Assembly: GCA_029251375.1 (NCBI GenBank)
Contig: JAQXDL010000012.1
Coordinates: forward strand, 1-61,231
Source of the DNA: Pseudomonadales bacterium
Lineage (GTDB): Bacteria > Pseudomonadota > Gammaproteobacteria > Pseudomonadales > Azotimanducaceae
Direction: 5' to 3'
DNA length: 61,231 nucleotides
Shown piece after piece: positions 5,600 through 32,353 of the stretch. How positions within the stretch are numbered: the first letter of the stretch is position 1; every line of letters starts with the position of its first letter. A program made the translations under genes and the position numbers. The notes beneath the pieces were generated by a model. That model was not told the DNA's origin, did no database searches, and was given only the letters and a program-made list of their open reading frames with translations.

Positions 5600-6463
5600 A
5601 TGACTCAAGCGTATATTCTGATCTGTGTTAGTTACTTACTCGCGCTAGCCGCTGCCTGGGTAACGCTTGCGTTTGTAGCCGACTATCACCTTATGGTTCA
5701 AGTGCTGATTGCGGACGTGGTCGCAACCATCGTCATTTTCACATTCAGTGTTGTGTTCAAAAACTCCAGTTTTTACGATGCCTATTGGAGCGTTATTCCA
5801 ATGGTCATTGTTGGCTACATGATTTGCCTAAACAGTGACGCTGATCAAATTCGTCAGCTAATGCTGGCACTTGTCATTTTGCTATGGGGGATTCGTCTGA
5901 CGGCCAACTGGGCCTACACCTGGAGCGGTCTTGATCACGTCGATTGGCGTTACGTAAACCTGCAGGAAAAAGCCGGAATCCTCTGGTGGCCGCTGAGTTT
6001 CACGGGGGTTCACCTTTACCCAACTATTCTCGTGTTTCTAGGCTGCATACCGATGTATCACGCCCTAGTAATCGGTACCCAATCAATCAACGGCTTCGAC
6101 TATCTGGCGCTGACTGTTGGCATCGTTTCGGTCTGGATTGAATTCCAGTCTGACCGTGAACTGCATCACTTTCGAAGCGTTCGCCGCAGTAAAACCGAGG
6201 TATTAGATACGGGGCTGTGGTCCTTGTGTCGACACCCTAACTACTTAGGCGAAATCGGTGTTTGGGTATCTGTACTGTTGTTCGGTTATGCCGCGGTAGG
6301 CTATGCCGACTATTGGATGCTGTCGGGTTCGGCAGCGATGATTCTGCTATTTACCATCGTCTCGATTCCAATGATTGAGAAGAAACTCATCGAAGATAAA
6401 CCCGGTTATGCAGCCTACAAGGCCAAGTCCTTCTCACTCATTCCACTGTCAAGATTTCGCTGA
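5600..6463 (+). CDS. DUF1295 integral membrane protein (steroid 5-alpha-reductase/ICMT-like fold)
   Basis: A 287-aa polytopic inner-membrane protein with about seven hydrophobic helices. The C-terminal third carries 'LWSLCRHPNYLGEIGVW', the RHPNYxGE signature shared by DUF1295, steroid reductases and isoprenylcysteine methyltransferases, where it contributes to NAD(P)H or SAM binding. The family's bacterial substrate is unknown. No clear Shine-Dalgarno precedes the ATG, so the start is taken from the hydrophobic N-terminus. The gene is on the same strand as yegD, 137 bases downstream; no functional link is evident. Confidence 0.85.
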   Translation: MTQAYILICVSYLLALAAAWVTLAFVADYHLMVQVLIADVVATIVIFTFSVVFKNSSFYDAYWSVIPMVIVGYMICLNSDADQIRQLMLALVILLWGIRLTANWAYTWSGLDHVDWRYVNLQEKAGILWWPLSFTGVHLYPTILVFLGCIPMYHALVIGTQSINGFDYLALTVGIVSVWIEFQSDRELHHFRSVRRSKTEVLDTGLWSLCRHPNYLGEIGVWVSVLLFGYAAVGYADYWMLSGSAAMILLFTIVSIPMIEKKLIEDKPGYAAYKAKSFSLIPLSRFR

Positions 6464-6643
6464 TCGCGCGGAGCCTCTTGCCTGAAGAAAGAAACAGGAT
6501 ATCGGGTCAGGGTAAAGGGACGCAGTCTACGCGCAGCTGAATTAATCATACAATTCATACATAAACACACTCTTTATATTTATGAAGCAAGCGTTCGGGT
6601 GTTAACAGTAAGCGTTCACGGTTTAAGTTAACCTAATTTACAG

Positions 6644-6692
6644 GGCAAGTACTTATTCCAGCAAGCTAGAGATCAGGGACTGGATACTTGCC
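6644..6692 (+). promoter_or_regulatory. Inverted repeat able to form a two-part hairpin upstream of the DUF2956 gene
   Basis: GGCAAGTA (6644-6651) is exactly complementary to TACTTGCC (6685-6692), and inside it TCCAG (6657-6661) pairs with CTGGA (6680-6684), leaving a small bulge and an 18-base loop. It lies about 70 bases before the preferred start of the downstream gene, where it could be a leader RNA structure or a protein-binding site. There is no T-run, so a terminator is unlikely. Confidence 0.4.
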
Positions 6693-6759
6693 TTGGTTAG
6701 CATTCATACTGAGCTTTGATCGACTATCCGCTTCCCAAACATTAAATATAGGTACACCG

Positions 6760-7098
6760 GTGAAAAACGAAAATGTATCAAAAGCTTCAAGTGAATCACA
6801 AGCCGTGGCGCTGAAGCTGGCCAAAGGTATACAACGCCCGGAGCAGACGAAGGCGCAGACGAAACTTATTGCCCAAGGTATTGAGAAAGGCATTACCGAG
6901 TACAAGAAACAACAGAAAGTCCTGGCCCGTGAGCGCGACAAGCATCGCAAGAAAGAATTGAAAGCAAGCCTGCGCGATGCGGCGGATAACTCAGGTGAGA
7001 ATGTTGAGCCACCGAGCAATCTTGTATCCCAATTGTTAGTCGGCTTACCGTGGCTTCTGCTGGCAGCAAGCTGGGGGTACTTTTTACTACGTCAGTAA
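6760..7098 (+). CDS. DUF2956 family small membrane-anchored protein
   Basis: About 112 aa. A charged, coiled-coil-like Lys/Glu/Gln-rich region with 'QTKLIAQGIEKGITEYKKQQK' split around residues 35-55, then a C-terminal hydrophobic helix 'VGLPWLLLAASWGYFLL', fits the DUF2956 family of gammaproteobacteria (usually a little over 100 aa). The function is unknown; the layout suggests a tail-anchored inner-membrane protein facing the cytoplasm. The frame is open to an ATG at 6688, but the GTG at 6760 has AGG seven bases before it and gives the usual family length, so I prefer it. The next gene is convergent (RhlE) after 249 bases that hold an AT-rich palindrome at 7232-7251. Confidence 0.75.
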   Translation: MKNENVSKASSESQAVALKLAKGIQRPEQTKAQTKLIAQGIEKGITEYKKQQKVLARERDKHRKKELKASLRDAADNSGENVEPPSNLVSQLLVGLPWLLLAASWGYFLLRQ

Positions 7099-7347
7099 CT
7101 GACAATAGACGGGGCCGGGGTAAAATTCACACCTGCTTTATACGGCTTTATGTTGCTGGCCTTAGCGCGCGTTAGTCGCGGCCATAATATAGGCTGCGCT
7201 GCGTCAGTAATACGATGAGCCGAGCGTGGATGGATAAATATAAATTTATCCTCGACCTTATTAATTCTTTCTTCTGCGGACAGAGCCAAAGACGTGGCGT
7301 CTGAGTGAATTCACACTACCGGCTATCCACATCAACAGTAGGTCGCC

Positions 7348-8607
7348 TTAGCGCGCGCGCGGCTTACCAGGCTTGGTACTTGTTTTGCGTCTGCTAACCC
7401 GACTAGGTTTGTTGATTTTACGAGGCTGAATACTGCTCGCAGAAGCAATGATTTCACTATCGTATTCGAAGCTGTTCTTACCGTCGATATAGGGAATAGC
7501 TGCGATGAATATTTGTTGCTGAATAAGCTTTTCGATCGCTGCTACGTTGCTACGTTCGTCGCCACCCATTAATGAAATAGCAACGCCTCGCATGCCAGCA
7601 CGACCGGTTCGACCAATACGATGCACATAATCTTCAGCTTGACGCGGAATATCAAAGTTGATCACCAGTGGCAGTTGCTCAATATCGAGCCCGCGTGCTG
7701 CAATGTCGGTGGCGACGAGTATCTGGATTTCCCCATCTTTAAATTTCTGTAGCGTCTGGGTCCGCAGGTGTTGTGATTTATCACTATGAAGCGCGGCGCT
7801 GCTCATGCCTTTTTCGCGCAGGTAAGCATCAACGAGATTTGCGTTTCGGCGAGTACGGGCGAAGACCAAGCACTGCTGTGTATTGTTAGCTAGCAGGTAG
7901 TAAACGATGTCGGCTTTTTCATTTTGTTCGACTTCGTAAATAATCAGCTTAACGTCCTCTGCCGCTTTGTTTAAACGTTGGCATTGGACGATGACAGGGT
8001 CATGCAATAGTCCATTGGTAAATTTGGTGATTTTGTCGTTAAACGTGGCTGAGAACAGTAAGTTTTGACGTTGTTCGGGAAGCTGATTGAGTACCTTTTG
8101 GATCTGATCCTGAAAGCCCTGATCAAGCATACGGTCAGCTTCGTCCAGCACCAAAGTTTCAACTTGACTGAGATCCAGCTGTTTTTGTGCCAGTAAATCG
8201 AGCAACCGGCCAGGTGTCGCAATGAGGAAATCAACGCCATTGCCAATTTTGCGAATTTGCTGGTTGATTGACACGCCACCATAAATCACCGCGTGACGCA
8301 GTGGTAACTCACCGATAAATAGCGCGACATTGTCATCGATCTGCTGCGCAAGCTCACGTGTTGGCGCAAGGCACAGAACTCGGATAGGCCGACCTTTGCC
8401 GGGCTTGACCTGTTGCAGCTTATCCAACAGAGGCAAAACAAACGCGGCGGTCTTACCACTACCCGTTTGTGCTGAGGCCAATACATCACGCTGCGCGATG
8501 ATCGATGGAATGGCGCGCTCCTGAACCTCAGTGGCTTCGCTGTAACCCAATTGATCTAAGGGTTGTATGAGTGACTCAGAAAGACCTAGGTTGGTAAAAG
8601 CGTTCAT
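7348..8607 (-). CDS. rhlE: DEAD-box ATP-dependent RNA helicase, RhlE-like
   Basis: A 419-aa cytoplasmic RNA helicase with all core motifs: Q motif region, Walker A 'AQTGSGKT' (residues 46-53), 'PTRELAQQ' (82-89), 'TPGRLLD', DEAD (155-158), SAT (186-188), 'ATDIAARGLDI' and 'HRIGRTGRAG' in the second RecA domain. The tail is short and basic (rich in Arg, Lys, Ser, Pro), as in RhlE-type enzymes that help ribosome assembly and RNA decay. Other small DEAD-box paralogues (SrmB, DbpA types) are possible because the C-terminal tail is not diagnostic; DbpA's specific RNA-binding domain is absent. The gene is monocistronic and divergent from the degenerate region upstream. Confidence 0.92.
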   Translation of the reverse strand: MNAFTNLGLSESLIQPLDQLGYSEATEVQERAIPSIIAQRDVLASAQTGSGKTAAFVLPLLDKLQQVKPGKGRPIRVLCLAPTRELAQQIDDNVALFIGELPLRHAVIYGGVSINQQIRKIGNGVDFLIATPGRLLDLLAQKQLDLSQVETLVLDEADRMLDQGFQDQIQKVLNQLPEQRQNLLFSATFNDKITKFTNGLLHDPVIVQCQRLNKAAEDVKLIIYEVEQNEKADIVYYLLANNTQQCLVFARTRRNANLVDAYLREKGMSSAALHSDKSQHLRTQTLQKFKDGEIQILVATDIAARGLDIEQLPLVINFDIPRQAEDYVHRIGRTGRAGMRGVAISLMGGDERSNVAAIEKLIQQQIFIAAIPYIDGKNSFEYDSEIIASASSIQPRKINKPSRVSRRKTSTKPGKPRAR

Positions 8608-23179: not shown

Positions 23180-25597
23180 ATGCTCTTATCAGCACTACTC
23201 TTTACGTCAGCTCTTATTCTGATGATGGTCAGCGGCAGCCACAAATCTGCGAGGATTTGCTCAAGTATCACTGCGGTAACCATAATCCTCTTAACATTGA
23301 CTTACGTCACCGCAGATTATTTTACAGACAATGGCATTGATGAATCGGTCGTCTATCATTTACAGTATGGATTGCAGGGCACTGGATTCGGAGAGTATAT
23401 CGCCCTATTTATTGCTGTTATCGCCACAATTCTTCTCGTTGTTCCAGCGATCTGGTATAAAAATCGACTACTTAGTCTCGTTACGAACAAAGCTTCCAAG
23501 CTCTCGTCAATCTCTGTTCTGTTGTTACTCACCGGTTCGATTCTAAGTCACGCAGCCACTAGTGATATAATTGCGCTTAATTTAGCAGCAAATGCGTCCT
23601 CAAAAAGTCTCTCAACCATTTATGCAGACACTAGTGTCGAAGTTCAGGGTAGACCACTGAACCTTGTCTACATATATCTCGAAAGTCTCGAGCGTACTTA
23701 CCTTGATCAAACCCTTTTTCCTGGACTGACGCCAAACCTAACTCTGTTAGAAAAAGAATACACATCATTTACCGACATCCACCAACTACCAAGCACAGGC
23801 TGGACAATCGCTGGTATGACGGCAAGCCAATGTGGTGTACCGCTTGTGACGAAAGCCAACACGAATGACGCTACGGCACGAGGTGAAGGCAATTCAATGT
23901 CAGGCATGTCAAAGTTCCTGCCCGGTGCGACTTGCATCGGCGACATTCTAAAAAATATTGGCTATCGACTCTCTTATACTGGCGGTGCAAAACTGAGTTT
24001 TGCTGGGAAAGGCAAGTTTTACAAAACCCACGGATTTGATCTGGTAGAGGGCAAAGATGAACTCACTAAAAAACTAAAGCCAGGAAAGTACTTCTGGCAG
24101 TGGGGGTTGTACGACGACACGCTTTTTAACAATACAATAGAGGTTTTGAAAGATCCAGAACTCAAGGAGCCATTTGGTCATTTCCTATTGACCCTCGATA
24201 CCCACAATCCAAAGGGCCATCCATCCGCGTCATGTGGTGATCGAAAATATCAAGATGGCGCTAACTCAATGCTCAATGCGGTGCACTGTAGTGACTATTT
24301 GTTGGGCAAGCTAATTGATAATATTCAAAATCTAGAGGTCGCCAAGAACACATTAATAGTCATCACTTCAGATCACCTTGCACTTCGAAACACCGCCACT
24401 GAAATTTTAAACAAAGGAGAGCGCAGAGACTTATTCATTGCGATACCTCCAACAAAACCTATTCCTCAAGTCGTAGACCGCCCCGGTTCGATGCTTGATG
24501 TAGGGGTAACTGTTCTAAACTTAATGGGCATAGAAATTTCGAAACTCGGGTTCGGAAGAAATCTGTTAGGTAATACTGAAACATTGCTGGAATCAGAAAG
24601 TTCACCTGACGATTTCCTGGCTGGCCAAAAAGGAAATCTGCGTGATTTATGGCTCTATCCTGATATTATCAATCAATTTAGTGTTGACGCCGAAAAGCGC
24701 CAAATGCAGATAGGTAATCAAACGATAAAATTACCAGCGTTAATTGAAATCAACGCAAACGACAAAACTACGAACATCGCTTTTGAATTCAACTCCTATC
24801 GTAAACTCTCTCAAAGAATTTTAGATATTCCTCCTGACCAAGCTGTAGTTTGGGTAGACAAATGCTCTTCGCTTCGTGCATTTTCTAGTGAAACTGAAAC
24901 CTATTCAGAAGGTCTTTGTGTCGCGGCTGGTAAAATTGGGGGCGAGAGTACTTTTTTCAAAAGCATCGAGGGACAAGCTAGCCTGAACTATGAAAATCTA
25001 CGCCCAACGTTAACCGCTGCTACCGAACCGGGTCGCACTGAAAAAGTCCGCCACCAACTCAAGATGGTCTCCACTTTTGGCGAATTCCCACTTCCATTGA
25101 TCACACTTCCTGAAAACGCTGAGTTAAAATCTCCTGTTTCACTATACGCATCAGGACACCCTCTTGATGGTCTCTCCTTCATTCTAAACGAGGGCATTCA
25201 AGAAAAAACGTCAGAAAGCGACCGGGGACTTAACCTGCTAGCACTTTCATCCGATGGTGTTCCAACCCGCATTTCAAATGTCAATATTTGCAAGGGAGTT
25301 ACTCAACCAAAAGTTCGAACCAATTTTGCCAACCTCATTCGCAAACAAAACGAACAAAACAAACAGGCAAACACGTTTATTGTTATGACAAACCATCTAG
25401 CCAAGTGCCTAGCAGACAAACAGACCGTTGAATTTTACCTCGAAGATCTTCCGTTCAAACAATGGCAAGATATTGTAAAACGACAATCATTTATCGGCGT
25501 GCTCGTCGACAATACCGTCGTTTTTGACAAAATTGGACACAAAGTTCATGGCACTCTTTCACTGCAAATCCAACCTAAACTTTCAGCAAAAAAATAG
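23180..25597 (+). CDS. opgB: Phosphoglycerol transferase I-like protein (OpgB/MdoB family)
   Basis: An 805-aa inner-membrane protein with four N-terminal helices (within residues 1-130) and a large periplasmic alkaline-phosphatase-fold domain. It aligns in order with E. coli OpgB (763 aa): 'NLVYIYLESLERTYLD', 'GWTIAGMTASQCGVPL' around the catalytic Thr, 'LSFAGKGKFYKTHGFD', 'LTLDTHNPKG' and 'VITSDHLALRNTA'. OpgB moves phosphoglycerol from phosphatidylglycerol to osmoregulated periplasmic glucans; the C-terminal third of OpgB is also matched ('VVWVDKCSSL' region), supporting orthology over a generic LTA-synthase-like sulfatase. AGGA precedes the ATG. It lies alone between the two copies of a direct duplication and is more AT-rich than its neighbours, which suggests acquisition or rearrangement. 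No opgGH glucan genes are in the window. Confidence 0.88.
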   Translation: MLLSALLFTSALILMMVSGSHKSARICSSITAVTIILLTLTYVTADYFTDNGIDESVVYHLQYGLQGTGFGEYIALFIAVIATILLVVPAIWYKNRLLSLVTNKASKLSSISVLLLLTGSILSHAATSDIIALNLAANASSKSLSTIYADTSVEVQGRPLNLVYIYLESLERTYLDQTLFPGLTPNLTLLEKEYTSFTDIHQLPSTGWTIAGMTASQCGVPLVTKANTNDATARGEGNSMSGMSKFLPGATCIGDILKNIGYRLSYTGGAKLSFAGKGKFYKTHGFDLVEGKDELTKKLKPGKYFWQWGLYDDTLFNNTIEVLKDPELKEPFGHFLLTLDTHNPKGHPSASCGDRKYQDGANSMLNAVHCSDYLLGKLIDNIQNLEVAKNTLIVITSDHLALRNTATEILNKGERRDLFIAIPPTKPIPQVVDRPGSMLDVGVTVLNLMGIEISKLGFGRNLLGNTETLLESESSPDDFLAGQKGNLRDLWLYPDIINQFSVDAEKRQMQIGNQTIKLPALIEINANDKTTNIAFEFNSYRKLSQRILDIPPDQAVVWVDKCSSLRAFSSETETYSEGLCVAAGKIGGESTFFKSIEGQASLNYENLRPTLTAATEPGRTEKVRHQLKMVSTFGEFPLPLITLPENAELKSPVSLYASGHPLDGLSFILNEGIQEKTSESDRGLNLLALSSDGVPTRISNVNICKGVTQPKVRTNFANLIRKQNEQNKQANTFIVMTNHLAKCLADKQTVEFYLEDLPFKQWQDIVKRQSFIGVLVDNTVVFDKIGHKVHGTLSLQIQPKLSAKK

Positions 25598-25674: not shown

Positions 25675-26034
25675 TTGAAATTACTCGTCACGAAAAGAAG
25701 CTATGAAGCAGCAAACTCGCCGCGATGTTTATCCTCTTTTCAGAGGGCACGAGCTTTTACCTTTCATCGATGCTGGGCAAAGTCCTCGAAATCGCACTTC
25801 CCGCGTGCTTGGTTTTCCTCTTCGCTGTTAAGTCAGGATATGCAAGGCACCGAGTATGAGAGTTATCGTAAATTTCAAATGTATAGTGCTGCTGTCGAGG
25901 AAACGCTAGCGTTGGATGAAATCGGCCCGAGCCAAGATGCACTTTTAGACCGGCTACGCGAAAGCCTGCAAATCTCCAATGAAGATGCACAAAAGGTACG
26001 ACAGGAAATTCTTGCAGACAATTTAAAGACCTAA
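25675..26034 (+). pseudogene. Truncated second copy of the 7TM membrane-protein gene
   Basis: The last 70 codons are nearly identical to the C-terminal domain of the gene at 21438 ('YESYRKFQMYSAAVEETL' then 'PSQDALLDRLRESLQ'). Upstream the DNA still resembles 22110-22280 in patches (shared ATGTTTATC, TCAGAGGG and TTTCATCGATGCTGGG) but has indels and lost the membrane helices. It has no proper start, so I regard it as non-functional. The sharp change from low to 97 percent identity suggests gene conversion or recombination between the copies. Confidence 0.75.
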
Positions 26035-26103
26035 ATTACACCTAAATCAACCAGGCTTTTTGCGCCCGCTTTGATTGCGTCCTCAGGTGATCTGGGGTTC
26101 CAA
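25813..26103 (+). repeat. Duplicated segment, copy B
   Basis: Partner of 22281-22570, same orientation. Here the segment runs into the intact 3' end of the epimerase gene (26031-27044, opposite strand), so copy B probably marks the original gene junction. Confidence 0.9.
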
Positions 26104-27044
26104 CCTAATGCCTCAGCAGGACTGCAATCGTATTCTATCTGCGTGCCGAGTGATTTGGCAGTAAATGCCATGACGGGATCAAACAGGGCGAGAATTCGAA
26201 TCACAAAGTCCGGAAGTTCTCGGGTCGCCAACTTGTCTTTGTAAGCAGGAAATTCCTCAATCAGACAGGCTGAGACCGCTTTAAACCAACGGAAACCGTT
26301 ACTACACAGCAACCGCTGCCCAGCGGCGTCAGCTTCCTCAAAACCAATTCGGTGCAAATGAGCGACGTCTCTGACATCGACAATACTAAAACCCATATGA
26401 GGCAACATGGGGTACTTGCCCTGCATCAATACATAGACAGTTTCTAGGGAACTGCCATAATCCGCTTCCAGGGCTGGTCCTAAAACCACAGCTGGCTGAA
26501 TAGTGACAAGTTCCATTTCTTCATGTGCGTTGACGAAGTCCCACGCAGCCTGCTCTGCCAAAGTCTTGCTCTGCCCATAAGGATCCGCGGCGGGATGATT
26601 AACGTCTGTCCAATCCTCGGCGGTTTGCGGTGCAGAATCGCGCTTCTGATTACTACTCACAGCAGCCACGGAAGAGGTCAGTACAATTCGTCTTATGCCG
26701 GCTGCTTGTGCGGCTTTCAAAACATTCAGCGCCCCTTCTCTGGCGGGCTTGATCACTTCATCGGGATTTTTTGGCTGTTGGATTGGCACAGGTGAGGCCA
26801 CGTGAATAACACCGTCACACCCTGCCACTGCTGCCGGCCAGGTGTCAGGATCCGTTAACGATGCTGCGACAAACTCAAGCTTGTCGATATGCTCAGTATG
26901 TTTCGCTAGCATCGTTTTAATAGCGTCAGCACGGCCCAGATCGCGGATACTGCCACGAACTTCATAACCATTGTTCAAAAACTCCAGAACAGTATGGCTA
27001 CCGATAAAACCAGATGCGCCTGTCACTAAGACTTTAGACATCAT
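26031..27044 (-). CDS. NAD(P)-dependent epimerase/reductase, extended SDR (cinnamoyl-CoA/dihydroflavonol reductase-like)
   Basis: A 337-aa cytoplasmic Rossmann enzyme. 'VTGASGFIGSH' near the N-terminus is the TGxxGxxG dinucleotide loop; 'GSIRDL' suggests NADPH preference; catalytic Ser in 'LTSSVAAV' and the YxxxK of 'YGQSKTLAEQ' are present. Length and the 'QPAVVLGPAL' segment fit the dihydroflavonol-4-reductase-like aldehyde/ketone reductases, so reduction of an aldehyde or ketone is more likely than sugar epimerisation; the substrate is unknown. AAGGAAT precedes the start ATG. Its 3' end overlaps the duplicated copy B by a few bases. Confidence 0.88.
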   Translation of the reverse strand: MMSKVLVTGASGFIGSHTVLEFLNNGYEVRGSIRDLGRADAIKTMLAKHTEHIDKLEFVAASLTDPDTWPAAVAGCDGVIHVASPVPIQQPKNPDEVIKPAREGALNVLKAAQAAGIRRIVLTSSVAAVSSNQKRDSAPQTAEDWTDVNHPAADPYGQSKTLAEQAAWDFVNAHEEMELVTIQPAVVLGPALEADYGSSLETVYVLMQGKYPMLPHMGFSIVDVRDVAHLHRIGFEEADAAGQRLLCSNGFRWFKAVSACLIEEFPAYKDKLATRELPDFVIRILALFDPVMAFTAKSLGTQIEYDCSPAEALGWNPRSPEDAIKAGAKSLVDLGVI

Positions 27045-27568
27045 GAGGATTCCTTTTGATTTGGCGTTGTTGGCGCAAATGTATGCCCCTTTTGTGAGCG
27101 AGTATAAGGTGAAATCTCACTAATCACCAAAACCCTACGACACGTTCTGGATCTCACCACACCAAGACGGACTTTGCCGAGCACGACATGGACGATGAGC
27201 ACAGTTTTAAGTCTTCGAAACCTATTTAACGCCTCCACAGTCCAGTGGTACATTTTACTCAAGCTAGTCACGCCATCTTTGTCAGAACAATCGCCAGCAC
27301 TGAGACATGTCAGAGTTTCGGCCAGTCACCCAAAGGCCAATGTTGATGTTCTACCAACACGTTAGGTTTTTTACAGATGATGATCGCGTATCGAATCGAG
27401 GTGAATTCATATCTTCAAGGGAGATGTCAGTCCGAAGAGTTACCGATTGAATCGACTCAGGATGAAAAACGATCGTTTGCTAATCAATCTCACAACAAAT
27501 TTTTCAGTCTGACAAATTTCGCACAACGCCCATTTGAGCCATTCCAAATCCCGCGAATTTACTCTAAT
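27045..27568. other. Long regulatory/intergenic region upstream of the exosortase locus
   Basis: About 520 bases without a recognised gene before the sigma-54 promoter. It includes a near-palindrome TTTTCAG-T-CTGACAAA (27501-27516) 53 bases upstream of the -24 box and a related ATGTCAGTCCGA (27424-27435) about 77 bases further up. These are plausible enhancer sites for a sigma-54 activator, by position and partial similarity only. Confidence 0.4.
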
Positions 27569-27584
27569 TGGCACGCTGATTGCT
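27569..27584 (+). promoter_or_regulatory. Sigma-54 (RpoN) promoter of the exosortase/PEP-CTERM locus
   Basis: TGGCACGCTGATTGCT fits the sigma-54 consensus TGGCACG-N4-TTGCW at every defined position, with GG and GC separated by exactly 10 bases. Transcription would begin near 27595, giving a leader of about 165 bases before the PEP-CTERM-like gene. In other proteobacteria PEP-CTERM/exosortase genes are linked with the sigma-54-dependent PrsK/PrsR two-component system, which makes this placement meaningful. No prsK/prsR is in the window. Confidence 0.8.
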
Positions 27585-27690
27585 TTGTTAACGTTTGAAA
27601 ATCAGATGCACACCTTTGATTCAGAAACGTTTTATAAATACCCCTCTGTTATAGGAGAAAACGACGCATGTGCATTTTGCAGAATCAAAA

Positions 27691-27709
27691 CATTCGCGAT
27701 TTGCGAATG
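27691..27709 (+). promoter_or_regulatory. Hairpin in the leader of the PEP-CTERM-like gene
   Basis: CATTCGC-GATTT-GCGAATG is a perfect 7-bp stem in the predicted leader, 51 bases upstream of the start codon. No T-run follows. It might stabilise the transcript or control translation of the substrate gene. Confidence 0.45.
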
Positions 27710-27759
27710 CAAATTGCAAAGACTAGAGACCTTTGTTACAACAAAAATGAGAGATACCA

Positions 27760-28533
27760 ATGATTAAATCACCGTTGAAATTAGCCACGCTTTTTACGCT
27801 AGTAACGATAATTGGCCACGCCAATGCTGCACAAGACGACCTAATCACCTTTGAGCCAGTTGATGGCTACCTACCCGACGGCTCATTGGCTGTCGACAAT
27901 GCCGCTATCACGACCCAATATCGCGCCCAATACGGCGTATCTTTTGGCTTAGACACTGACAATAATTTAGAAATCGATCGCGGCTCAACATTACGACTCG
28001 AGGATACGTCTAATACCAACGGCAATTGGGGATACGTTTCGACGTTAGCAGAGGAAGAATATAACAATGCGGAAAGTGGCTACGAGTCTCAGCTAGGAGA
28101 CTGGTTTTTAACAAACGATATAGATGGCGAAGTATCGGACACAATTTTAATCCAGTATGACAACCCTGTGACGCAGGCTTCGGGAGAAATTTGGGATATC
28201 GATGGCCGAACAAACGGCAACTCGGAACAATGGCAAGTATCTGCCTACGATCAGTCCGGTACCCTCCTCGAAAACATCGAAAGTCCGATAGGTGTGCACA
28301 ACAGCGTCGAAGGGTCACTCGATTCGAAGCCTTGGTTGTGGTCCTTTGATGTAGGCAGTGGACAACAAATCACGAAAATTACTATGCAAGCCATTGGTAA
28401 CGTAAGCAATTCGCCCGTTGCGTTCAACAATTTTGCAACAGCTTCGGTCGGTGCACCGGAACCGCAATTCTGGGCAATGTTGACCTGCTTTGGATTGATC
28501 AGCTTGTTTGTCCATCGCAGACGAACAGCGTAA
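27760..28533 (+). CDS. Exported protein with PEP-CTERM-like sorting tail, predicted exosortase substrate
   Basis: 257 aa. A Sec signal peptide (about residues 1-23, ending 'HANA') is followed by a beta-rich, acidic, Asn/Asp/Gly-rich domain without Cys that I do not recognise; it could be a carbohydrate-binding-like sandwich. The C-terminus has the tripartite sorting signal: 'APEP', a hydrophobic helix 'FWAMLTCFGLISLFV' and a basic end 'HRRRTA'. Exosortases are thought to cut or process this signal and release or attach the protein outside the cell. It is the first gene of the locus, directly behind the sigma-54 promoter, and the exosortase is two genes downstream, so it is very likely the dedicated substrate. 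The ATG has GAGAG about eight bases upstream. Confidence 0.85.
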   Translation: MIKSPLKLATLFTLVTIIGHANAAQDDLITFEPVDGYLPDGSLAVDNAAITTQYRAQYGVSFGLDTDNNLEIDRGSTLRLEDTSNTNGNWGYVSTLAEEEYNNAESGYESQLGDWFLTNDIDGEVSDTILIQYDNPVTQASGEIWDIDGRTNGNSEQWQVSAYDQSGTLLENIESPIGVHNSVEGSLDSKPWLWSFDVGSGQQITKITMQAIGNVSNSPVAFNNFATASVGAPEPQFWAMLTCFGLISLFVHRRRTA

Positions 28534-28545
28534 GGGATTACACCA

Positions 28546-30486
28546 ATGGACAAGAGTTCTCGAAACGTCGTTCTTGCTATTGTTGGTGTCATTGCTTTGG
28601 CCTTGTGTCTCGCGGTATTTGCATTGCAGGGAAGGGAGCGCGATCGGCTGGCTGCTGAACATGAGACACTGAAGCATGCTCAAGAAGTTCTCGAACTAGC
28701 GCCTGGCGAGTCGCTCAAAATGTACTACAAAACGAGAGGCAATGGATTCCCCGCCAAAAATCAGGCTGCGTGGGCGCCTCTTCATGCTAGAGCTTTGTTA
28801 AAAAGTAAACGCATTCCTGAACTCGCTGAAGTCTATCGACGCAACCCGGAACTTGTGCAAACGCAAGAAGATCTTAGTATTCAGGTCTACCAATTCCTTA
28901 GCACGACGGGCCGGCTGTCGGCCGCAAGTGCACTGCGTGACCATTGGCGTGATCGGGAGACTGACCAGCTAGGGTGGCTCACCGCCTCTATCACTGCCTA
29001 TGTTTACCTAGATGAAATAGCAAGCGCACGGGGTATCGCAAGTACTGCAGAACTCAATGAAGACGATGAAGTGCACAGACAATTACTACTAGCCCGGCTC
29101 GCGGAACACCCAGCGACACGGGTTGCGCACCTAGACGCCGCTTTAGCATTGCAGCCGTCCGAACCAGATGCTAGAGCAGCACGCGCCCTACAACTGGAAA
29201 CAGAGGATGAAATCCGCTATGCGCTCTACGAGCACAAACAGGCACTTCGAGCAGATCCTGATAACCCAGAACGAGCTCATGCATTGGCTGAATTTCTTGT
29301 AAGGAACAGGCAAAGTCGGGCTGCTCTTAACCTATGGGAGAGTTGGGCGGAAAAAGATCAGCAGGCCTATATCCGTGCTGCACTTTGGAGCCGATTAGTA
29401 CGTCCAATGCAACGTATCCCAAAAACGCCACGGGTCTTTGAACCTGATCTAGAGCAGCTTGTTACGACTCTCGCCAGCAACACAGAGGCATTCTTTAATT
29501 CATCATTTTTAGATAACCAAGTAGACCTGGAAGAAATATTCTGGATTACGCTGCTGAACAAAATTTCTACTGCCCAGTACACTGACGCACTCACTCAAAT
29601 GAATGAAACACCAACCGACAGCCCAACACTCAATCCGGTAATGTTCGCAGGTTTTCATCAGGTGCTGAATTATCGAGTTAACAAAAAATTTGAAAGCCAA
29701 TCGTCACCCATAACATTGGATCTGAGGCCTGAAAATAGCCCTCTTATCACGAGAAAGCTGCAACAACTTGCCAAATACAAAGAGAACCAGGGCACCGACC
29801 TCGTCAATAATGACGAGACTCTAAGAGAAGTCGAAACGCTTTTAGCTTCCGATCAAATTTTTACAGCCATCGCCCTTGCTGGCGGCTGGACAGAAGCCGC
29901 ACTAAATCTTCCAATGCCGACTGCGATTTCACCGCGTTGGCTTCAGTTACAATGGGTCAGTGCACTCATGGCAAACCGTTCATCGAAAATAACTCTTGCC
30001 TACGTCGAGTCGTTAAAACCATGGGACGAACAGATTGAAGTCATCGCTGCCGAGCTCTATCTCAGACTTGACAGCGTGCCGCTAGCAGAGGAAATACTGC
30101 GCCGACATGCTGGCACAGCGACCGTGGCTGGCGCGCGGGCAGCTGACCTGTACGCGAGGTTGCAGTTTGAACGTAAAGCGTATAACGAAGCACTTGAAAC
30201 GATAATTGCAAACCCCGCTTTCAGCATGACGGTGCCTGGCCACGAACTTGTTGCTCGAATTTACATTGATGCAGGTGCTACGGAATCAGCTCTAAAGATT
30301 CTTTCTCGAATAACCAAAAACTCAACGTTTGCGCGAGAGTTTATAGCCGCTGAATCTTATCGAAACGGCGATTACAAAACAGCCAGTGACAACCTCGCTG
30401 CGCTAATCCGTGACCAACCCGAGCGCAGCGATCTACGTGAGAGTTTGCTACAAGTTGCCAACGCAGAGCAGAAGGTGAAACTTTAA
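28546..30486 (+). CDS. TPR-repeat membrane-anchored protein of the exosortase locus
   Basis: 646 aa. One N-terminal membrane helix (about residues 8-27, 'VVLAIVGVIALALCLAVFAL') followed by a long all-helical region with degenerate tetratricopeptide-like repeats from about residue 70 to the C-terminus ('AARALQLETEDEIRYALYEHKQAL' region split over 200-240, and 'AALIRDQPERSDLRESLLQV' at the end). It should face the periplasm as a scaffold. Large TPR proteins accompany many exosortase/exopolysaccharide loci (for example PrsT). It lies 12 bases after the PEP-CTERM gene and overlaps the exosortase start (TAATG), so the three are co-translated. Its exact partner is unknown. Confidence 0.78.
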   Translation: MDKSSRNVVLAIVGVIALALCLAVFALQGRERDRLAAEHETLKHAQEVLELAPGESLKMYYKTRGNGFPAKNQAAWAPLHARALLKSKRIPELAEVYRRNPELVQTQEDLSIQVYQFLSTTGRLSAASALRDHWRDRETDQLGWLTASITAYVYLDEIASARGIASTAELNEDDEVHRQLLLARLAEHPATRVAHLDAALALQPSEPDARAARALQLETEDEIRYALYEHKQALRADPDNPERAHALAEFLVRNRQSRAALNLWESWAEKDQQAYIRAALWSRLVRPMQRIPKTPRVFEPDLEQLVTTLASNTEAFFNSSFLDNQVDLEEIFWITLLNKISTAQYTDALTQMNETPTDSPTLNPVMFAGFHQVLNYRVNKKFESQSSPITLDLRPENSPLITRKLQQLAKYKENQGTDLVNNDETLREVETLLASDQIFTAIALAGGWTEAALNLPMPTAISPRWLQLQWVSALMANRSSKITLAYVESLKPWDEQIEVIAAELYLRLDSVPLAEEILRRHAGTATVAGARAADLYARLQFERKAYNEALETIIANPAFSMTVPGHELVARIYIDAGATESALKILSRITKNSTFAREFIAAESYRNGDYKTASDNLAALIRDQPERSDLRESLLQVANAEQKVKL

Positions 30487-31313
30487 TGCAAGTCAGCGTC
30501 TTGACTGGGCTGCTTGTGCTTATCACTGGCGCTGTCTATATATGGCTGCATGATTTAGCTTGGTGGCACAGCCAGCCCTTCGCTCTGCTATTGATTTTGG
30601 TACCACTAATTCCAGCCTATCTGTGTCGCCCATGGAAATTGCGAGCATCGCCTTTACCCATGTCAATGCGCCACCAACTCTTACTAGGCTGTGCTGCGCT
30701 TGCATGGCTGGTAGGTCTTAGTACTGGTTATGTTTTCCCATTTGCACTGAGCTGGGCCGCCCTTTTCTGTATCTTCATGCACCAGAATTTCGAATCTGAG
30801 CGAGCAAACGACATACTAAAACTACTACCTTTTGCGCTATTGGCCTTTCCTTGGATAGTGCTGGATGGGGACACCATCGGATGGTACTTCCGACTCAGCG
30901 GCGCGATAGTCAACGAACACGTTCTTGCCGCTATTGGACTTGATGTTGAACGACAAGGCGTTAGTCTTCTTGTCAGTGGGCTGACAATCAATGTACTCGC
31001 AGATTGCGATGGCATCGATACCCTTCAAACGATGCTGATGGCAGGTGGCGTGCTTGGCTTTCTCGTCTCGGGTAAAAAGGACACACAATATTGGTACATC
31101 TGGCCGATGATCATTATTTTTGCCTGGCTTGCTAACACTTTACGTATTCTACTGATCTCCGTAGTCGGTCTACTTTACGGCGTAGACTTCGCGATGGGTA
31201 CATTTCATGACTGGGGTGGCACGGTATCGGTTGCTCTGATGTTTTTGCTATTTGCCTTTCTGACACTAGGTTTCTCCGCAGGCAATAGTAATGAAAACCA
31301 ACATGCTCACTGA
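30486..31313 (+). CDS. Exosortase/archaeosortase family transpeptidase-like protein
   Basis: A 275-aa inner-membrane protein with about eight helices. The three invariant exosortase residues are present in order: Cys174 in 'ADCDGIDTLQTML', Arg220 in 'LANTLRILLISVVG' and His241 in 'FHDWGG'. These form the predicted catalytic site that processes PEP-CTERM-like tails. It lacks the fused C-terminal EpsI-like domain of some exosortases; a separate EpsI-like gene follows two genes later. I cannot assign a subtype (XrtA and so on). The start overlaps the TPR gene stop (TAATG) with AAGGTG upstream, and its end overlaps the next gene by 23 bases, so the locus is tightly coupled. Confidence 0.93.
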   Translation: MQVSVLTGLLVLITGAVYIWLHDLAWWHSQPFALLLILVPLIPAYLCRPWKLRASPLPMSMRHQLLLGCAALAWLVGLSTGYVFPFALSWAALFCIFMHQNFESERANDILKLLPFALLAFPWIVLDGDTIGWYFRLSGAIVNEHVLAAIGLDVERQGVSLLVSGLTINVLADCDGIDTLQTMLMAGGVLGFLVSGKKDTQYWYIWPMIIIFAWLANTLRILLISVVGLLYGVDFAMGTFHDWGGTVSVALMFLLFAFLTLGFSAGNSNENQHAH

Positions 31314-31776
31314 GAAGCTACCGAGCATCATCATACTCACGTATGCGGCATTCCTATCATCGGATGTTATGACAGACTGGCGATACAGCCCTTTTGATTC
31401 TGGCGGGCATACTGCTTTCGCTATTTGGTTCTCGCTTTGGCTTGTGCTTGCAAAGACTGATGTAAAGCCCTCAAATTTTTTATCATTTGCAGCCGGACTC
31501 TGCTTGATTCTCGGTTTGATGATGGACTTAAACGTCGTATTTCATCTGGCCATATTAATTGCGGCGTTACAATTTTTGCCCCGCGAAGCCTGTTCCTACG
31601 CCCATCTTATCAGCGGGTTTTTATGGCTACCCGCCTTTGGCTATGCAATGGCCATGGTCGGCATTGAGGAGTCGAGCGCGGCAACCGTTCGCATATCACT
31701 CGCACTACTTATGACTATAGTGGTTGTGATCATTGCGACTACCCGAAAGTTGGAGCTTCGTTATGAGCCGCACTAA
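31291..31776 (+). CDS. Small multi-pass membrane protein of the exosortase locus
   Basis: 161 aa with four to five hydrophobic helices ('IIILTYAAFLSSDVM', 'AFAIWFSLWLVLA', 'FLSFAAGLCLILGLMM', 'FLWLPAFGYAMAMVG', 'LALLMTIVVVIIATT'). I recognise no named family. It overlaps both neighbours (23 bases with the exosortase and 14 with the EpsI-like gene), so it is almost certainly made together with them. A role as an accessory subunit of the sorting complex is inferred from position only. Confidence 0.7.
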   Translation: MKTNMLTEKLPSIIILTYAAFLSSDVMTDWRYSPFDSGGHTAFAIWFSLWLVLAKTDVKPSNFLSFAAGLCLILGLMMDLNVVFHLAILIAALQFLPREACSYAHLISGFLWLPAFGYAMAMVGIEESSAATVRISLALLMTIVVVIIATTRKLELRYEPH

Positions 31777-32353
31777 TGGGCAATTTTTACAGTGGCTGAT
31801 TATACTATTCGTTGTACTCGCAACATTTGCATTTAAGATCCATGCAACCCAGCAGCAACACAGCAGCCTGCATGATGTTCCTGTCAGCGGCTACGGTTTT
31901 GACGGCCGCGCGCTTGAATTTAGTGATGCCGAATTAGCATTTCTTGGCAAAGCTGAAGCAATCAAACATGAATACAGCCAAGCGGATTATCGATTGGTTG
32001 TCGTCGTTGTAGACGGCAGCAATAATCGACATGCTGTTCACGATCCGATCTTTTGTTTAAGGGGCGCTGGGTACGAAACAACCAGTAATACCGAATTTCC
32101 TATCATAAATGGTCACGGTCAATTGATCTCGCTTGCTAACGGATCAGCCAAACAAAAAGTTGCTTTCTGGTTTTCCAACGGCGAACAACGTTACACGGCC
32201 TTCAGCCGTTACCTTGCAGAATCGGCAATTAACCGCCTTACTTTCGGTGCGATCGGCTCGCAGCCAAAAATGATAACGGTCTATTCGACCGGCGGACGCA
32301 TTCCAAATTGGTCGAGCATCCTAGATCGATTCCCGGTACTAATGGACATATAG
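31763..32353 (+). CDS. EpsI-like exosortase-associated protein
   Basis: 196 aa. One N-terminal membrane helix ('WLIILFVVLATFAFKI') and a periplasmic domain. 'HAVHDPIFCLRGAGYE' resembles the HxPxxCLxGxGW signature of the EpsI/DUF3485 family, which occurs fused to or next to exosortases; 'VAFWFSNGEQRY' further supports it. The start at ATG 31763 is preferred over an upstream frame opening at 31733 because GGAG lies nine bases before it. It is the last gene of the locus and overlaps the preceding gene by 14 bases. The function of EpsI is not settled; it may assist substrate processing or polysaccharide coupling. Confidence 0.75.
   Translation: MSRTNGQFLQWLIILFVVLATFAFKIHATQQQHSSLHDVPVSGYGFDGRALEFSDAELAFLGKAEAIKHEYSQADYRLVVVVVDGSNNRHAVHDPIFCLRGAGYETTSNTEFPIINGHGQLISLANGSAKQKVAFWFSNGEQRYTAFSRYLAESAINRLTFGAIGSQPKMITVYSTGGRIPNWSSILDRFPVLMDI

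Follow-up and report, generated by a model that had tools for sequence, protein, structure and literature searches.

The window, a stretch of 61,231 nucleotides (nt) from contig JAQXDL010000012.1 of a Pseudomonadales bacterium, contains five tightly packed genes around an exosortase (27569-32353). These genes probably constitute a dedicated exosortase module, which has its own PEP-CTERM substrate, is transcribed by RpoN polymerase and forms a membrane complex from the products of genes 3, 4 and 5. The gene anatomy, the promoter match, the catalytic residues of the enzyme and the positional pairing of three exosortases with three sorting tails in the genome are observed directly, and sequence similarity suggests that genes 3-5 may correspond to a single fused protein encoded elsewhere in the same genome. 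The features of the locus are as follows.

27569..27584, + strand: sigma-54 (-24/-12) promoter, 12 of 12 consensus positions, transcription start predicted near 27595.
27692..27708, no strand assigned: perfect 6+5+6 palindrome ATTCGCGATTTGCGAAT, within the predicted untranslated leader.
27760..28533, + strand: gene 1, PEP-CTERM substrate of 257 amino acids (aa), with a signal peptide (by eye), a middle region without family match and a C-terminal PEP tail.
28456..28530, + strand: PEP-CTERM sorting tail of gene 1, PEPQFW, a hydrophobic helix and RRR near the C-terminus, below the NCBIfam CTERM cut-offs.
28546..30486, + strand: gene 2, TPR-type protein of 646 aa with a single N-terminal transmembrane (TM) helix.
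30486..31313, + strand: gene 3, exosortase of 275 aa with catalytic Cys174/Arg220/His241.
31291..31776, + strand: gene 4, membrane protein of 161 aa, which may be the separately encoded equivalent of the middle membrane segment in a fused exosortase-EpsI protein.
31763..32353, + strand: gene 5, EpsI-like protein of 196 aa with conserved His93 and Cys98 (HxPxxC).

All five open reading frames (ORFs) were found as claimed in the first-pass annotation, closely packed between 27760 and 32353. Genes 1 and 2 are spaced by 12 nt, and there are overlaps of 1, 23 and 14 nt at the junctions 2-3, 3-4 and 4-5, a sign that genes 2-5 may be translationally coupled. For the EpsI-like gene, the ATG at 31763, with GGAG upstream, is a better fit as start codon than the TTG at 31733. 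The guanine-plus-cytosine content of the five genes (46.9-49.7%) equals that of the window (48.2%), so composition shows no sign of recent import. The first-pass annotation also held that exopolysaccharide (EPS) synthesis genes are lacking around the locus, and no clear ones occur among the 10 flanking genes: a Pfam scan, in which 3 of the 10 had no match of any kind, returned no glycosyltransferase or polysaccharide polymerase/flippase family. The caveat is a flanking dehydrogenase (26031-27044), whose best match is Epimerase and which also matches Polysacc_synt_2 (PF02719, 29.8 bits, cut-off 20.2).

The window exosortase is recognized by PF09721 (72.8 bits, cut-off 25.7) and TIGR04178 (37.4, cut-off 23), stays below the cut-off of TIGR02602 (69.5, cut-off 105.55) and reaches none of the named NCBIfam subtypes listed, the best being XrtA (48.5 bits, cut-off 208). 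The proposed triad Cys174/Arg220/His241 is invariant in an alignment of 7 exosortases. The EpsI-like protein lies just over the cut-off of DUF3485 (PF11984, 27.8 bits, cut-off 26.1), scores 12.5 bits with TIGR02914 (cut-off 42.8) and resembles XrtO, XrtN and XrtD in their C-terminal part at sub-threshold scores; its His93 and Cys98 do not vary when it is aligned with five other EpsI-like sequences. The TPR protein matches PF12895 (32.1 bits, cut-off 27.2), with TPR_19 and TPR_17 below cut-off. A PDB sequence search at E 1 returned nothing for the substrate, the exosortase or the 161-aa protein.

Two further exosortase sets occur in the same genome; with the window locus counted as module 1, they are as follows.

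C22, L017:8299-14791, minus strand: module 2, comprising a Wza-like export protein, a nucleotidyltransferase, a TPR protein, a PEP-CTERM protein and a 534-aa fused exosortase-EpsI.
C39, L018:6322-9634: module 3, comprising a PEP-CTERM protein with a long SSK repeat, a 334-aa protein and an XrtZ-like exosortase of 481 aa.

Module 2, unlike the window module, is linked to polysaccharide export (its Wza-like protein scores 158.5 bits with TIGR03027, cut-off 180), and its TPR protein has a lipoprotein-like N-terminus (by eye). The fused protein lacks the N-terminal half of the window exosortase, its Cys being residue 89. The substrate and enzyme genes of module 2 share a reading frame and are separated by one TGA and seven codons (L017:8299-10632), such that read-through of the TGA would join substrate to enzyme. 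In module 3, the 334-aa protein has one TM helix and no TPR match, and the exosortase scores 400.5 bits with XrtZ (cut-off 475).

The 161-aa protein had appeared undescribed in the first-pass annotation, and it has no NCBIfam or Pfam match at E 1 and no PHROGs match better than E 0.13; its single-sequence structure prediction is of low confidence (mean predicted local distance difference test score, pLDDT, 53.7). The lack of a family stands, and what changes is the proposed identity of the protein: despite weak similarity, it is somewhat more likely than not that the middle segment of a fused exosortase-EpsI protein occurs here in detached form. The catalytic half of gene 3, gene 4 and gene 5 align in order to residues 61-170, 180-340 and 350-495 of the module 2 protein, with Smith-Waterman scores of 125, 78 and 89, each reached by none of 1000 local shuffles. 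Queried with the module 2 middle segment, the 161-aa protein ranks first among 75 distinct TM-rich proteins (Smith-Waterman 78, next 59) and first after the segment itself in a phmmer search of 464 ORFs (E 3.7e-4).

A series of other comparisons speaks against this assignment. From the 161-aa side, the module 2 protein is the best phmmer match apart from self but at E 0.11, and BLASTP of the pair gives E 0.36. With the middle segment as BLASTP query against the 464 ORFs, another window protein outranks the 161-aa protein (E 0.080 versus 0.31), and with the 161-aa protein as query, module 2 is not among the ten matches listed. The score against the isolated middle segment was reached by 5 of 2000 shuffles, and tblastn at E 0.5 found nothing in the loci searched. 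By Smith-Waterman, the runner-up partner of the 161-aa protein is another exosortase, in its N-terminal part (69, 0 of 1000 shuffles), and alignment of the XrtZ-like protein of module 3 with genes 4 and 5 fails (146 and 343 of 1000 shuffles). Such weak or failed pairwise statistics, together with the missing family match, leave a substantial chance that gene 4 encodes an unrelated accessory membrane protein, placed between exosortase and EpsI by coincidence. Against coincidence stand the near end-to-end alignment with the module 2 protein, in gene order, and the first rank from the module 2 side by two methods.

The runner-up match also prompted the hypothesis that the 161-aa protein duplicates an exosortase N-terminal half, which was dropped rather than refuted. 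A profile of 32 such halves scored it at -4.2 bits, with 304 of 400 shuffles as high or higher, and the module 2 middle segment at -8.2; the positive control, the N-terminal half of the window exosortase, reached only 4.3 bits, so that the profile has little power, and six decoys in this test were real exosortases overlooked by the motif.

The pairing of enzyme and substrate rests on the sorting tails. The window substrate starts with an apparent signal peptide and ends in APEPQFWAMLTCFGLISLFVHRRRTA; the PEP motif, TM helix and basic C-terminus were identified by a regular expression and by a purpose-built profile that includes the same tail, while the curated models NF035944 (11.5 bits, cut-off 35) and NF038126 (13.3, cut-off 50) fall short. 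The protein has no Pfam match at E 1 and nothing above cut-off in Pfam or NCBIfam, its predicted structure is of low confidence (mean pLDDT 41.3) and, beyond the tails, it has no clear similarity to the substrates of modules 2 and 3. The genome encodes three exosortases by Pfam profile and three detectable PEP-CTERM tails, each tail gene lying beside one exosortase. The tail profile, built from six PEP-CTERM tails (three of this genome and three from other genomes) and run against the whole genome at E 10, recovered the three tails, themselves part of the profile, at E 2.3e-18 to 9.9e-15, and no fourth PEP tail. As the other two tails each adjoin another exosortase, every exosortase has one detectable, neighbouring substrate. 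The one-substrate sorting module proposed at first is thus supported, and the pattern extends to all three sets.

It is unlikely that the window exosortase is not dedicated, the three enzymes sharing three substrates or serving proteins whose tails lack a recognizable PEP. All three tails carry PEP with a W three residues later, give or take one, so cross-processing is possible. The profile is short, scored 29 candidates and contained the very tails it recovered, and a tail without PEP may escape it. Of its two weak extra matches (E 0.25 and 0.41), which align to profile positions 16-35 and 17-33 only, after the PEP, the first comes from the C-terminus of an 85-aa ORF, where KRR follows a helix and PEP is missing; the second lies inside a 654-aa ORF. 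Dedication is favoured by the absence of a fourth PEP tail from the profile search and by the fact that every tail gene adjoins one exosortase.

The sigma-54 promoter was said to fit the consensus throughout, and at 27569-27584 all 12 defined positions of the scanned pattern (TGGCACG-N4-TTGCW) are matched. With up to one mismatch allowed, the window contains no other match, and shuffles of it average 0.92. Across the 4.16 Mb genome there are 3 perfect matches versus 1 for the control, the reversed pattern, and, counting both strands, 48 versus 35 sites with at most one mismatch. A search for rpoN found the gene at C6:271438-271914. The site lies 175 nt from the start codon of the window operon; in section 7 of Haft et al. 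(2006; PMC1569441), distances from site to start have a mean of 71 and a maximum of 221. Modules 2 and 3 have sites with a single mismatch 45 and 34 nt before their first genes. About 0.001 sites of this quality are expected per 200-nt upstream stretch on one strand (from the 48 sites), and the chance of sites at both modules, which were not picked beforehand, is roughly 1e-6 by our own estimate, with the 200 nt set after seeing the data. That the match is fortuitous and the operon transcribed otherwise is very improbable: the control count implies that such sites arise mostly by chance, a ureD-like ORF contains one of the three perfect sites and a one-mismatch site in the module 3 locus stretch (L018:2548) falls just inside another ORF, but all three exosortase sets have a site close to the first gene, a simple consensus scan of the + strand ahead of the operon (27045-27760) gave no sigma-70-like match, and published passages describe sigma-54 sites ahead of PEP-CTERM genes, one with a mapped RpoN1-dependent start (PMC1569441; PMC9850573).

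The genome has two other perfect sites. One (G000:C36:14388-14403, L020:5389-5404, minus strand) is situated ~130 nt upstream of a wax ester synthase/DGAT-like ORF (by eye), which would fit RpoN control of storage lipids, and also falls inside a short 100-aa ORF. The other (G000:C11:29265-29280, L019:5266-5281, minus strand) is that in the ureD-like ORF (by eye), beside urease genes, and is probably a chance match.

By analogy with known PEP-CTERM systems, the first-pass annotation had linked the locus to PrsK/PrsR regulation. This link was not borne out, as the genome has no PrsK or PrsR at cut-off although rpoN is present. The best PrsK score (TIGR02916) is 81.4 bits (cut-off 300) and covers only model positions 462-679, the C-terminal kinase region; 13 of 14 control genomes have kinases that the model picks up too, none above cut-off. 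This far sub-threshold best score belongs to a multi-TM histidine kinase of 987 aa, in a 742-aa part of which Pfam detects a PAS domain (L089:1737-6066, G000:C25:21000-28500), and whose gene is followed by that of a sigma-54 response regulator. With the PrsT model (TIGR02917, cut-off 312.2), in a comparison confined to these two proteins and not extended to the whole genome, the TPR proteins of the window and of module 2 score 21.6 and 60.2 bits.

The genome has 10 matches to the sigma-54 activator domain, and the 6 strong ones among them were compared with the NCBIfam models. Of these, NtrC and PspF attain their own cut-offs, and a LuxO-like activator (564.4, cut-off 800) gives the best PrsR score of the six (TIGR02915, 388.2 bits, cut-off 502.6). 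The activators on C25 (beside the kinase gene), C36 and C1 (895 aa) are below cut-off for every model shown; that on C36, for which no model is reached, we take to be PilR. The gene of the LuxO-like activator adjoins an H-NOX-type sensor gene-like ORF and kinase genes (by eye; L090:3522-4901 and 6204-7654, G000:C22:95500-105000), and its locus lies on the contig of module 2, ~22 kb from the module 2 promoter, which makes it a candidate activator for the exosortase promoters.

Passages of Haft et al. (2006; PMC1569441) also describe a motif ending in TTTACA, 32-92 nt upstream of the sigma-54 promoter. TTTACA at this spacing is missing from all three modules, as judged by the exact TTTACA ending and not by the full 17-nt motif. 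The exact hexamer occurs before module 1 only at -199, and the 400 nt preceding modules 2 and 3 lack it; its reverse complement lies at -22 in module 2. A candidate for a shared activator site, the best match between the promoters of modules 1 and 2 (GCGATTT..CGA..TGCAAA), was rejected, since 31 of 500 shuffles reached it and it is not significant; among 88 loci it occurs only at those two places, from which the pattern was derived. Likewise, 10-mers shared by the three upstream regions are no commoner than in shuffles.

Together, these features outline how the module could work. RpoN polymerase, with an activator other than PrsR, would make one message from ~27595. The substrate would cross the inner membrane by means of its signal peptide and stay anchored by the PEP-CTERM helix, where the membrane-anchored TPR protein may present it to a complex in which the catalytic exosortase is joined by two further membrane subunits, the 161-aa protein and the EpsI-like protein. 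In line with the published exosortase model, Cys174 would then attack near the PEP motif, and the protein, freed from its helix, would be passed to the surface or matrix.

Homologue searches, which covered about 1000 of 97,973 genomes, bear on how far the five genes form a unit. The 161-aa protein was found in its own genome only among 117 relatives (own included), and none of the four further genomes listed for its genus has it. In 369 genomes of the class, the exosortase retrieved itself and 6 weak matches (E 1.2e-5 to 2.7e-4), and in 390 genomes of the order itself and one match (E 8.4e-5). From ORF lists inspected by eye, the class-wide matches L021-L024 read as EPS clusters, L025 looks similar, and at L026 a VWA-type protein adjoins an exosortase. 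Short-peptide pattern scans of genome and viral contigs, which pick up close relatives only, matched 23, 2 and 60 stretches, none of which was confirmed, and plasmids held no match for the window exosortase or the other two. Some exosortase is present in 38 of the 117 relatives, own included; 35 of the other 37 relatives score at least 121 bits (best Pfam), versus 72 for that of the window. Given the weak matches elsewhere and this low score, the window exosortase looks like a rare, divergent lineage.

Several of these and earlier results count against a dedicated module with a three-part complex. In the genomes sampled, searches turned up no exosortase ortholog, which leaves the five genes without evolutionary support as a unit, and the gene sets are treated as operons from their packing. 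The TPR protein of the window has weak likeness to that of module 2 (7 of 300 shuffles) and none to its counterpart in module 3 (283 of 300). A dedicated module is nevertheless the preferred and probable explanation. A more tentative extension is that the genome runs three parallel exosortases, each with one adjacent substrate and all switched by RpoN without PrsK/PrsR, and that the window exosortase would be a three-part machine whose catalytic, middle membrane and EpsI parts, including an unnamed membrane subunit, are separate, translationally coupled subunits.

The locus resembles known systems in part. The PEP-CTERM/EpsH (XrtA) system with PrsK/PrsR/PrsT, as set out in parts of Haft et al. 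(2006; PMC1569441), likewise combines a Cys/Arg/His exosortase, EpsI-like and TPR partners, a PEP-CTERM substrate and a sigma-54 site before the substrate gene. In contrast to that account, there is here no PrsK or PrsR at cut-off, the TPR protein is far below the PrsT cut-off, TTTACA is not found at the described spacing, only one substrate is detectable, no clear EPS genes are nearby and no named exosortase subtype is reached. In Aquincola tertiaricarbonis, portions of PMC9850573 report a PEP-CTERM gene, pepA, with a similar RpoN1 promoter (TGGCAC/CTGCTT motifs), a mapped start and prsT downstream; unlike here, that genome has prsK and prsR, and a prsK transposon mutant was floc-deficient, with no restoration by added prsK (PMC9850573).

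In the sense used in parts of Haft and Varghese (2011; PMC3237569), a dedicated system has an enzyme with one target in a genome, a definition made for rhombosortase. The present locus is alike in that sorting enzyme and single target are encoded side by side, and differs in the enzyme family and in that a single genome has three exosortase pairs. Fused exosortase-EpsI proteins (XrtO, XrtN, XrtD and XrtZ in NCBIfam) provide a further parallel, gene 5 weakly matching the C-terminal parts of XrtO, XrtN and XrtD and module 3 being XrtZ-like; in the window, by contrast, exosortase and EpsI are encoded separately, and a third gene, for a membrane protein, overlaps the two.

According to a passage of PMC3237569, a species that has PEP-CTERM proteins often carries twenty or more, which makes such systems hard to dissect. 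Three enzyme-substrate pairs with no other detectable PEP-CTERM substrate offer a clean setting for studying exosortase substrate choice, and the same genome suits the study of what roles the EpsI and TPR partners have and which non-PrsR activator acts together with RpoN. Should gene 4 encode the middle segment as a separate subunit, each part of the machine could be deleted on its own.

Other arrangements were seen alongside. In a genome of the same class (L026:5466-8926), an exosortase-EpsI frame is immediately preceded by a VWA-type protein (by eye) of 688 aa that carries a PEP-CTERM tail, possibly another dedicated pair. Two genomes of the window's family share a divergent exosortase-EpsI protein of 559-572 aa (L070:4477-10760, L071:1866-5941), whose genes are divergent from apparent response regulator and kinase genes. 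Within the window, upstream of the module, an 805-aa membrane protein with a sulfatase-type domain (PF00884) is encoded at 23180-25597, separated from the module by a small ORF and the reverse-strand dehydrogenase gene.

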